In this document: in pieces, positions 47,057 to 49,109 of the stretch
Layout of the letters: each line of letters begins with the position of its first letter
Position numbering within the stretch: the stretch's first letter is position 1
Source: Saprospiraceae bacterium
GTDB lineage: Bacteria > Bacteroidota > Bacteroidia > Chitinophagales > Saprospiraceae
DNA: 64,000 nt
Direction of reading: 5' to 3'
Assembly: GCA_027486765.1 (NCBI GenBank)
Contig: JAIXOO010000023.1
Span: 1-64,000, forward strand
Made by a program: the position numbers and the translations under genes
Notes under the pieces: model-generated
Told to the model about the DNA's origin: nothing
The model's database searches: none
Seen by the model: the letters and a program-made list of their open reading frames with translations, nothing else

Positions 47057-47170
47057 GGGGCGAAAAAAATAAATTGTTCATTTTGCCAAAGGATTAGATA
47101 AGTAAACGTTTCATTTCAAGTGTCTTATCTAATCCTTTGGCTCAAGAAAAATGAACATTTATTTTTGCCC
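47057..47170. repeat. Large imperfect inverted repeat upstream of ppdK
   Basis: Inner arms CCAAAGGATTAGATAAG (47086-47102) and its inverse (47124-47140) are perfect over 17 bases. Outer arms 47057-47084 and 47146-47170 (GGGGCGAAAAAAATAAATTG and its inverse) pair with a few mismatches and one indel. The total is about 114 bases and ends in GGGGC/GCCCC. It could be a miniature transposon-like remnant or a cis-regulatory hairpin in the ppdK leader. Confidence 0.65.
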
Positions 47171-47310
47171 CACTATTAATGATATCGATGTCTAAGCTAT
47201 GAGGTTTACAAATCTTAAAAAAGGAGGGATGTCATGCGGAAAATTGAATAAAGTCAGTACATTGTCCAAGTAACCTTTTGTTCATAAAGTCTAATGACCA
47301 AATCCTCGAC

Positions 47311-47730
47311 ATGAAAGCCATTATGGACCTCATCGGTCGCATGTGTATCTCGCTGATTTTTTTCTATGAAGCCTACGACTCCATCATGTATGCCAAGGCA
47401 ACCAAGCAAATGATGACCGATTATGGCTTGGTGTGGCGACAAGATTTACTCTTTTATGGCGCTGTAGTGGCCTTGGTTTTGGGTAGTATTTTGGTGCTGA
47501 TTGGGTATCGGGCCAGTTTGGGTGCTTTTTTGTTGCTGGCCTATTGGATTCCTGTTACCCTTATTGTACATTCGTTCTGGAATGATGCGCCAGAATTGCG
47601 CCGGATGGAATCCATTCACTTTATGAAAAACGTCGCCATTACTGGAGGCCTCCTTTCGGTACTGGTCAATGGGAGTGGAAAAATCAGCATTCGCCGCTTG
47701 TTTGCTACTTTTCGGGTACGGAATGCATGA
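47311..47730 (+). CDS. DoxX-family membrane protein
   Basis: 139 residues from the ATG at 47311; a TTG at 47278 adds an N-terminal extension without support. Four membrane helices (about 5-22, 44-62, 67-85, 103-120) with the phrase RMCISLIFFYEAYDSIM and WNDAPELRRMESIHFMKNVAITG, the DoxX/SURF4-like pattern. The role is unclear; some members accompany thiosulfate or quinone oxidases. Followed by a probable terminator and the LytTR gene. Confidence 0.75.
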   Translation: MKAIMDLIGRMCISLIFFYEAYDSIMYAKATKQMMTDYGLVWRQDLLFYGAVVALVLGSILVLIGYRASLGAFLLLAYWIPVTLIVHSFWNDAPELRRMESIHFMKNVAITGGLLSVLVNGSGKISIRRLFATFRVRNA

Positions 47731-47865: not shown

Positions 47866-48633
47866 GTGATTAAGGCAATAATCGTTGAAGACGAGATTAA
47901 AGGAAGGAATAATCTCAAGAATTTGCTCAAACAACACTGCGAGCAGGTTGAAATCATTGGGGAAGCCGGAACCAACTCCGAGGCTTTGGTGCTGTTGTCG
48001 GATGAGACAATTGAGCCAGATGTCGCCTTTTTAGACATTAGTCTTCCCGACGGACTGATATTTCAAATGCTCAGTCAGTTGGAAAATTTAGATTTTGAGA
48101 TTATATTTGTCACAGCTTACGAAGAGTACGCCATCAAAGCCTGTGAATACAGCTCGATTGGCTACATTCTAAAGCCGATTGATCCCGACGCGCTAAAAGA
48201 AGCCGTCAGCCGGATTCGTATCCGTACCCGCAATCAAATGGATAAGCGACTGGAAATTTTCAGCGCTTATTACAACAACCCCAATGCTTTTTCAAAAATG
48301 AGCATTTCTGCTGTAGACGGCATCTACTTTGTCAACATCAAGGACATTGTACGCTTCGAAGCAGAAGACAATTATACCCACATCTACCTCAGCGGCAGTG
48401 AAAGAATCACTGCATCCCGCACAATCAAATCCTACGAAGATTTGTTAGCTCCCTTCAATTTTTACAGGGTACACAAACGCCATGTAATCAATTTGAACTA
48501 CATGCGTAAGTTTGTGAAAGGGGAAGGAGGCTTCGTGATTATGGATGACAACATCAAGATCGAAGTTTCCCGTCGGCGCCGACCTGCATTTATGGAACAA
48601 CTCCGTAGATTACAGGAAGGACCGGTACAGTAG
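47866..48633 (+). CDS. Orphan LytTR response regulator
   Basis: 255 residues from a GTG at 47866, where IKAIIVEDE begins; an earlier TTG at 47818 is less likely. Receiver with EDE near the N-terminus and phospho-Asp in VAFLDISLPDGL, then a LytTR DNA-binding domain (about 145-250) with FYRVHKRHVINLNYM. No kinase is adjacent, unlike the two other LytTR genes here, so its partner is elsewhere. The next gene downstream encodes a double-glycine-leader peptide; LytTR regulators control many peptide-based signalling or bacteriocin systems, which makes the peptide gene a candidate target. Confidence 0.9.
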   Translation: MIKAIIVEDEIKGRNNLKNLLKQHCEQVEIIGEAGTNSEALVLLSDETIEPDVAFLDISLPDGLIFQMLSQLENLDFEIIFVTAYEEYAIKACEYSSIGYILKPIDPDALKEAVSRIRIRTRNQMDKRLEIFSAYYNNPNAFSKMSISAVDGIYFVNIKDIVRFEAEDNYTHIYLSGSERITASRTIKSYEDLLAPFNFYRVHKRHVINLNYMRKFVKGEGGFVIMDDNIKIEVSRRRRPAFMEQLRRLQEGPVQ

Positions 48634-48704
48634 GTACAAAAAATGGAATTTTTTCATTTTTTTTTACCTCGAAAAATCTCCTGAAAACTTAATTTTGGCA
48701 GGGT

Positions 48705-48750
48705 TTGTAGCTTGCATACAAGGTGGCGTCTTGTAGTTGTCTATACAACT
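48705..48750 (+). promoter_or_regulatory. Tandem palindromic elements upstream of the peptide gene
   Basis: TTGTAGCTTGCATACAA (48705-48721) and TTGTAGTTGTCTATACAA (48731-48748) are near copies, 26 bp apart, each with TTGTA and TACAA at the ends. The second includes AGTTGT-CTAT-ACAACT (48735-48750), a perfect 6-bp palindrome. They sit between the LytTR gene and the peptide, 105-150 bases before its ATG. Confidence 0.55.
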
Positions 48751-48854
48751 TCAGGACAAATTGACGTTTATTACTTGGTACTTTGGGGTAGTGTTCTTAA
48801 CTTTCGCAATAGGAACCGATTTAAGCAATTTTTTATCCCATAAAACGCACTCAT

Positions 48855-49004
48855 ATGGGAAAACCAAAAGATGAAAAAAAGAACCTGGACGACCTGAAAA
48901 AAGACCTTAAAACCGTCAAGAAAGAGGATATGAAAAAGATCACTGGCGGTAAAAAGGATGGGAAGAACTGGAACAATGGCTGTGGGGGAATTATCCCGCA
49001 ATAG
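48855..49004 (+). CDS. Double-glycine-leader small peptide (putative RiPP/bacteriocin-like precursor)
   Basis: A 49-residue reading frame too short for routine calling. It opens MGKPKDEKKNLDDLKKDLK and continues through VKKEDMKKITGG (GG at residues 31-32) to a 17-residue core, KKDGKNWNNGCGGIIPQ, with a single Cys. A long Lys/Asp/Glu/Leu-rich helical leader ending in a GG cleavage site is typical of peptides exported and trimmed by C39-peptidase ABC transporters. The core is basic and Gly/Asn-rich. No transporter, modifying enzyme or immunity gene is adjacent, so export would use a pump encoded elsewhere. A strong terminator follows 39 bases later. Candidate role: secreted signal or bacteriocin. 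It has not been named here because it was not recognised. Confidence 0.65.
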   Translation: MGKPKDEKKNLDDLKKDLKTVKKEDMKKITGGKKDGKNWNNGCGGIIPQ

Positions 49005-49043
49005 ACTACGTTTCAAATGTCCGAACGCTGTTCTTACCAACGG

Positions 49044-49080
49044 AAAAACCTCCTGCAAACATTTGTTACAGGAGGTTTTT
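49044..49080. terminator. Bidirectional terminator after the peptide gene
   Basis: AAAAACCTCCTG (49044-49055) and CAGGAGGTTTTT (49069-49080) form a perfect 12-bp stem with A and T tracts. It serves both the peptide gene and the convergent T9SS gene. Confidence 0.92.
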
Positions 49081-49109
49081 CTATTTCACATGGATAGAAT
49101 AACGACTAT

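Follow-up and report, generated by a model that had tools for sequence, protein, structure and literature searches.

Several bacterial systems that couple small peptides to gene regulation resemble parts of the locus described here. In the ComC-ComAB-ComDE and Blp systems, a double-glycine pheromone and a C39 exporter are combined with LytTR two-component systems that have a membrane sensor. In the RRNPP systems (Rap, Rgg, NprR, PlcR, PrgX), a small propeptide gene adjoins that of a cytosolic TPR receptor. A published account of these features (PMC10075063) gives a propeptide of 10-100 residues and a TPR receptor of 250-500 residues encoded by direct neighbours, with secretion of the propeptide by Sec or PptAB and its subsequent re-import; peptide signalling via cytosolic TPR receptors is described there for Bacillota. 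The DNA analysed in this study, a stretch of 64,000 nucleotides from a Saprospiraceae bacterium hereafter called the window, contains a locus that combines features of the RRNPP and ComCDE types, its parts being known and their combination new to the literature searched. Full-text literature searches, in which subscription papers and preprints lay largely outside the scope, returned no description of a regulator/peptide/TPR-kinase locus. The proposed three-gene unit would consist of a LytTR response regulator, a double-glycine peptide and a cytosolic TPR histidine kinase. From sequence and a structure model, we suggest with somewhat less than even confidence that it may work as a peptide-controlled two-component system in which the TPR kinase reads the tail of the peptide in the cytosol and a C39 transporter exports the peptide.

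The peptide gene is a frame of 49 codons on the forward strand (48855-49004), whose whole product is MGKPKDEKKNLDDLKKDLKTVKKEDMKKITGGKKDGKNWNNGCGGIIPQ. Its Lys/Asp/Glu-rich leader (residues 1-32) ends in ITGG (residues 29-32) and is followed by the 17-residue core KKDGKNWNNGCGGIIPQ, which contains a single Cys, in line with an earlier examination of the letters alone (the sequence-only reading), which had suspected an overlooked gene. The core closes with the tail CGGIIPQ. When 60 relatives were compared, four genomes of the genus, including that of the window, encoded the same peptide (100% identity), and a fifth one with 90% identity. Pairwise comparison of its codons in the four congeners revealed 1-5 synonymous and 0 non-synonymous differences, so that the decay of the frame between relatives that was looked for is absent; the fifth congener differs from the four by 6 non-synonymous and 16-19 synonymous changes (pN 0.05, pS 0.58-0.69). 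A profile of 16 sequences matched 165 of 398 Saprospiraceae-type genomes at E <= 1e-3 and 177 at E <= 0.1, with one match in most of them, and both glycines of the leader are invariant in alignments A1 and A2, which bears out the expectation of a leader conserved in homologues. At the level of the order (298 genomes), 45 matches were obtained and all 45 fell within the same family, and at the level of the class (295 genomes) only three weak matches (E 4.7e-4 to 7e-4) were found besides the own genome. A chance open frame was ruled out because the changes are synonymous only and conservation extends across the family, and these comparisons establish the 49-codon frame as a genuine gene, conserved well beyond chance. 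The gene keeps its place across genera though the window copy lies below every NCBIfam and Pfam cut-off, the nearest leader model being NF047798 with 14.2 bits against a cut-off of 23.5. One genome (G036) has the peptide gene twice (L043 and L044), both copies being strong; one has an adjoining LytTR regulator and the other has none, and the kinase of this genome is located on a third contig.

The DNA flanking the frame is also structured. A 5' block directly before the ATG (48763-48854, forward strand), defined by the alignment of four species, is identical in 91 of 92 columns, compared with 72 of 108 in the preceding block, and is the probable promoter and leader of the gene. Of the two tandem palindromes that had been reported upstream, both are there; the second, a hairpin of 6+6 bp (48728-48757), retains its pairing in a congener whose two arms have both changed, in an alignment judged by eye, whereas the first, TTGTA-N7-TACAA (48705-48721), is visible in the sequence and weak in its fold. 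The stretch containing both dyads has a fold z of -1.9, with 12 of 200 shuffles folding as well. A search with the stretch 48690-48854 for further regulon sites in three genomes (G000, G002 and G004) gave nothing better than E 0.17. Behind the frame, the alignment reveals a conserved 3' untranslated block, GTCCGAACGCTGTTCTTAC (49019-49037, forward strand), and the strong terminator of its own that had been attributed to the gene is found at 49042-49082, also on the forward strand: the fold of 49005-49085 (-23.9 kcal/mol, z -4.42) is dominated by this intrinsic terminator hairpin and is equalled by 0 of 200 shuffles. The near identity of the 5' block would also fit a frame that is not a gene and forms part of a regulatory RNA or of the leader of a downstream gene. 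This explanation is extremely improbable, given that the changes among congeners are synonymous only, that the protein is conserved across genera and that no Rfam family scored above its gathering score.

The peptide consists of two modules, the double-glycine leader and a C-terminal tail with the consensus C-G-G-hydrophobic-hydrophobic-P-Q. Among 72 distinct peptides, position -2 is Pro in all 72 and position -1 is Gln in 67, His in 4 and Leu in 1, while Gly occupies position -6 in 68 and Cys position -7 in 57, the Cys being replaced by Leu, Trp or Ser in some peptides. Two loci of genus g62 (L149 and L154) were left out of these counts; their divergent GG peptides, of 69 and 67 residues, end in FGGTIPQ and LGSTIPL, respectively, and the 76 peptides counted for length have 45-64 residues. 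The flanks fetched for L149 and L154 contain neither regulator nor kinase, and both genomes carry the kinase elsewhere, as in the genus of the window.

Upstream of the peptide gene, the LytTR gene noticed at the outset was identified as a response regulator (47866-48633, forward strand, GTG start) with a receiver domain, whose phospho-acceptor region is DVAFLD, and a LytTR DNA-binding domain (Pfam Response_reg 1.8e-14, LytTR 3e-19). Gene order was surveyed at 78 loci of 77 genomes, chosen from the 177 genomes with matches and exclusive of the window's own locus, with adjacency defined as a same-strand LytTR regulator ending <=700 bp upstream or a kinase starting <=700 bp downstream. The regulator adjoins the peptide upstream in 70 of 77 informative loci, so the synteny with the LytTR gene is widely kept; the kinase adjoins it downstream in 63 of 77, and both genes flank it in 58 of 76. 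The order in the relatives is thus LytTR regulator, peptide and a histidine kinase of ~640 residues. The description of the regulator as an orphan without a kinase is true locally in the window but does not apply to the relatives, in which its likely partner, the TPR kinase, lies directly behind the peptide.

The ten neighbour clusters found most often at the 78 loci are headed by the regulator (66 loci) and the kinase (62). An Ion_trans channel occurs at 42 loci, a penicillin-binding protein at 24, a FAD-enzyme-like protein at 23 and a DoxX relative at 22. Each of the last four clusters is present at 6-8 loci; they encode a SurA-like foldase, a DAHP synthetase, a short-chain dehydrogenase and a protein that matches nothing in Pfam. 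Of the eight clusters other than regulator and kinase, six were scanned in Pfam, one was assigned to DoxX by Pfam and one was judged FAD-enzyme-like by eye. The Ion_trans channel is found near the regulator, mostly on the opposite strand (e.g. L033:9427-10320). No radical SAM, lanthionine, other peptide-modifying or immunity gene was recognised among the ten clusters, a result that bears on the possibility that the peptide is a bacteriocin or a modified RiPP under two-component control. The Cys present in 57 of 72 tails would suit such a product, as would a leader resembling Bacteroidetes GG leaders: TIGR04149 is matched weakly by 16 of 40 members (best 2e-4; the window peptide is not among the matches at E 0.1) and NF047798 by 3 of 40. 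By these weak matches, the families behind the two models resemble the present peptide in the type of leader. The peptide differs from them in its fixed C-terminal tail and in its link to a TPR kinase, and no radical SAM enzyme was recognised in the clusters that most often neighbour it. Most genomes contain a single profile match, and some tails have Leu, Trp or Ser instead of Cys. Further, the conservation of the tail across genera argues against a bacteriocin, and together with the missing modification and immunity genes among the commonest clusters it makes this explanation very unlikely and speaks against the antimicrobial role that the sequence-only reading had offered as one of its two options. 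The other option, a putative signalling role, is favoured.

In the genome of the window, the kinase was found away from the window's contig, on contig C27 (7979-9898), in agreement with the proposal that kinase genes would lie elsewhere in the genome. It shares 72% identity with the copy of G004, which adjoins the peptide, and has kept the NPHF, ENAIEHG and DxGxG motifs of catalysis intact. The congeners G002 and G003 have the kinase on the contig of the peptide at a distance of about 17 and 20.6 kb (17-21 kb), and no kinase match was obtained in G001, whose assembly is 86% complete. Because pst genes occur near the end of the window's contig and pst genes also lie beside the kinase in G002, the kinase of the window's genome is probably located just past the contig break. 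In the genus of the window, the kinase would therefore seem to have moved away with its catalytic motifs retained. Across the 398 genomes, the kinase is present in 157 of 165 genomes with the peptide versus 47 of 233 others (Fisher 2.8e-56, phylogeny ignored), 12 weak peptide matches (E 0.0025-0.073) being scored as peptide-negative.

The kinase of G004 illustrates the domain layout, with TPR repeats (Pfam TPR_12 4.5e-19) followed by His_kinase and HATPase_c domains in ~640 residues. In 60 adjacent copies, the maximum of 19-residue hydropathy was 0.66-1.71, with 1 of 60 above 1.6. These low maxima indicate that the kinase looks soluble, and the hydropathy scan together with a structure model of the copy at locus L160 points to a cytosolic protein with no evident transmembrane segment. 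A search starting from the kinase, in which the kinase alignment alone was run against named genomes and 80 loci were kept, recovered the soluble TPR type in 27 loci (one of them, L173, cut by a contig end), with a profile-recognised peptide just upstream of 18 of the 27 and no peptide-profile match at E 0.1 in the remaining loci of the 80 scanned. This search is not an independent sample because the kinases used as query had been taken from peptide loci and several of the named records are themselves surveyed genomes. Ranked by kinase score, a peptide was recognised by profile at 18 of 20 kinases with >=696 bits (L163 and L169 being the high-scoring kinases without one) and at 0 of 7 with 509-617 bits. 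The latter group consists of L175, L177, L178, L180, L182, L183 and L186. At L175, a GG-less frame with the tail FCGMPTPQ lies upstream of the kinase, and at L180 a LytTR regulator too distant for the regulator profile is situated just upstream. Hydropathy maxima were 0.7-1.6 in the 27 soluble-type kinases and 1.2-3.4 in the 53 more distant ones, 52 of which reached at least 1.6. LytS-type Bacteroidota kinases have the kinase domain and a LytTR-type partner in common with the kinase described here and differ from it by their hydrophobic segment.

In the L160 model (mean pLDDT 86.5), nine helical pairs (residues 12-367) are predicted to form a TPR superhelix, mostly at pLDDT >=90, which continues through a long helix into the kinase domain. 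Its closest solved folds are those of peptide-bound LGN (Z up to 27.2), followed by, among others, RapI (Z 24.8), NprR (Z 23.8) and RapF with its inhibitory peptide (Z 23.5), and the sequence profile of the kinase also matches the Rap-type phosphatase 6t3h (2.7e-7). TPR folds are common, and likeness of fold reveals neither ligand nor function. Docking was attempted by modelling the L160 peptide and kinase as one chain with the two stops read as Gly. In this read-through chain, the leader formed two short helices (pLDDT 56-69) and the core and tail were disordered (pLDDT blocks 37 and 26) without docking, the free C-terminus being masked and the alignment shallow. The comparison of tail distances with TPR distances revealed no covariation beyond phylogeny (partial r 0.04, 57 loci). 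The read-through model and the covariation test thus gave no support for direct binding of the tail to the TPR domain.

The resemblance to RRNPP systems extends to a small propeptide gene that adjoins the gene of a receptor with TPR repeats, predicted to be cytosolic. At 49 residues the propeptide is within the range of 10-100, direct neighbourhood is observed in the 63 of 77 loci mentioned above (the window's own genome deviates, with the kinase on another contig) and the modelled fold of the kinase matches RapI, RapF and NprR. In contrast, the receptor has ~640 residues because it includes a histidine kinase and so falls outside the range of 250-500; further differences are the LytTR regulator as partner, assigned by adjacency, the double-glycine leader and the Bacteroidota host.

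A C39-peptidase ABC transporter elsewhere in the genome had been suggested as the exporter, and two were found, on contigs C148 and C241. The C148 transporter lies beside an HlyD-type gene (Pfam HlyD_3) on a 6-kb contig with no local GG frame, whereas a GG-like small frame occurs near that of C241; the former may be the better candidate exporter for the window peptide. The small frame of contig C241 (L047:9958-10137, reverse strand) has the GG-like leader MKKVKDNELTELTGG..., and the C39 transporter there also has a neighbour with a thioredoxin-like domain. C39 domains (E <= 1e-6) are present in 162 of 165 peptide genomes and in 88 of 233 others (Fisher 1.7e-41, phylogeny ignored). Synteny and co-occurrence link the peptide gene with C39 transporters as well as with the kinase and the regulator. 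With ComCDE and Blp, the locus shares a double-glycine propeptide, a C39 exporter in the genome and a LytTR response regulator next to the peptide; it differs in that the membrane sensor is replaced by the TPR sensor of a kinase that, judging from the hydropathy of 60 copies and the model, is soluble, that the exporter is outside the locus and that the tail is conserved across genera.

The two modules can be separated in divergent relatives. In 47 kinase-bearing genomes without a profile match (40) or with a weak one (7), the region upstream of the kinase was inspected, and 28 were found to carry a small, divergent frame whose tail is similar, ending in Pro-Gln or Pro-His in 27 of them. The remaining 19 genomes have no such peptide upstream of the kinase, five of these regions (L249, L282, L283, L285 and L286) being cut by contig ends and another, L276, having a GG frame with a different end. 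At L261 (genome G072), two tandem GG frames precede one kinase and end in STGGIVPQ and AAGSVFAPQ. The leader GG is kept in 21 of the 28 frames and gone in seven, namely those of G374, with Gly-Thr-Gly instead, of G105 and G194 (genus g101) and of G029, G156, G227 and G273 (genus g26). The peptide of G273 does contain GG, within a Gly/Ser/Thr-rich stretch unlike a leader. In genus g26, the tail YCG/FCG-xx-TPQ is kept beside the kinase and the leader GG is lost, and no C39 match was found in the four genomes examined (95-100% complete). Kinase-bearing genomes without a C39 match number nine in total, and only in the four of g26 has GG been lost while the tail persists; G186, G210 and G252 (71, 97 and 93% complete) contain a profile-matched peptide, and G014 and G275 have no peptide at the kinase. 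G105 and G194 have lost GG yet possess C39. In genus g26, GG would thus go with the exporter and the tail with the kinase, although this one lineage probably represents a single event. Retention of the tail without leader or exporter in this genus favours a cytosolic role.

These observations bear on two further explanations. According to the first, C39 exports the mature core of 15-20 residues, an oligopeptide permease takes it up again after trimming, and the cytosolic TPR kinase thereby monitors cell density; this would be the manner of RRNPP systems, except that a kinase stands where these have a phosphatase or a DNA-binding domain. Such an export-import pheromone would be in line with a TPR-built, apparently cytosolic receptor whose modelled fold is like those of NprR and the Rap receptors, with the co-occurrence of C39 and with the adjacency of propeptide and receptor genes. 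Pheromone types are usually diversified, and the conservation of the tail over many genera argues against a strain-specific pheromone, as does the retention of tail and kinase in g26 without GG and without C39; we therefore regard this explanation as unlikely. According to the second, the kinase responds to some other input, and the peptide is an output that the regulon makes for export (a surface, matrix or envelope-active peptide, for instance) and whose position is incidental. The co-occurrence with C39, the separate terminator, the highly conserved 5' block and the location of the peptide apart from the kinase in the window's genus, L149 and L154 can all be accommodated in this way, but the persistence of the tail in g26 despite loss of the export leader and the co-occurrence of peptide and kinase (in 157 of 165 genomes with the peptide) are not readily explained by it, and its probability is likewise low.

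In the preferred mechanism, that of a kinase reading the tail inside the cell, the leader would deliver the peptide to the C39 transporter encoded elsewhere, to be cut at GG and exported, and the TPR superhelix of the kinase would recognise the conserved tail in the cytosol. Once bound, the tail would alter the phosphorylation state of the LytTR regulator. The peptide gene is probably among the genes that this regulator controls. The tail could reach the kinase before export or after re-import, with an effect of either sign. Because the tail would be read inside the cell while C39 exports the peptide, the kinase would sense the cytosolic pool of the peptide, that is, synthesis minus export. 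A soluble tail-reading TPR kinase with a C39 drain could accordingly act as a sensor of the balance between synthesis and export, or of population density if the peptide is re-imported, a function that we propose with considerable doubt. If true, a peptide receptor of the RRNPP kind would exist outside Gram-positive bacteria and occur in much of the Saprospiraceae, it would be the first fused to a histidine kinase within the literature searched, and the logic of peptides and TPR receptors would be extended to Gram-negative environmental bacteria. The locus would unite two separate designs, the two-component systems of GG peptides and the TPR receptors, and the tail, with seven residues and a free C-terminal Gln, provides a ready short candidate ligand.

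Upstream of the regulator, the window also encodes a DoxX-family membrane protein (47278-47730, forward strand; Pfam DoxX 5.8e-10). A DoxX relative is found upstream in 22 of the 78 loci, and the gene is probably outside the peptide unit. It is preceded by nested inverted repeats (47066-47166), of which the inner arms (47085-47102 and 47124-47141) are 18 nt long and perfect and the outer arms (47066-47084 and 47148-47166) are 19 nt long and 84% matched.
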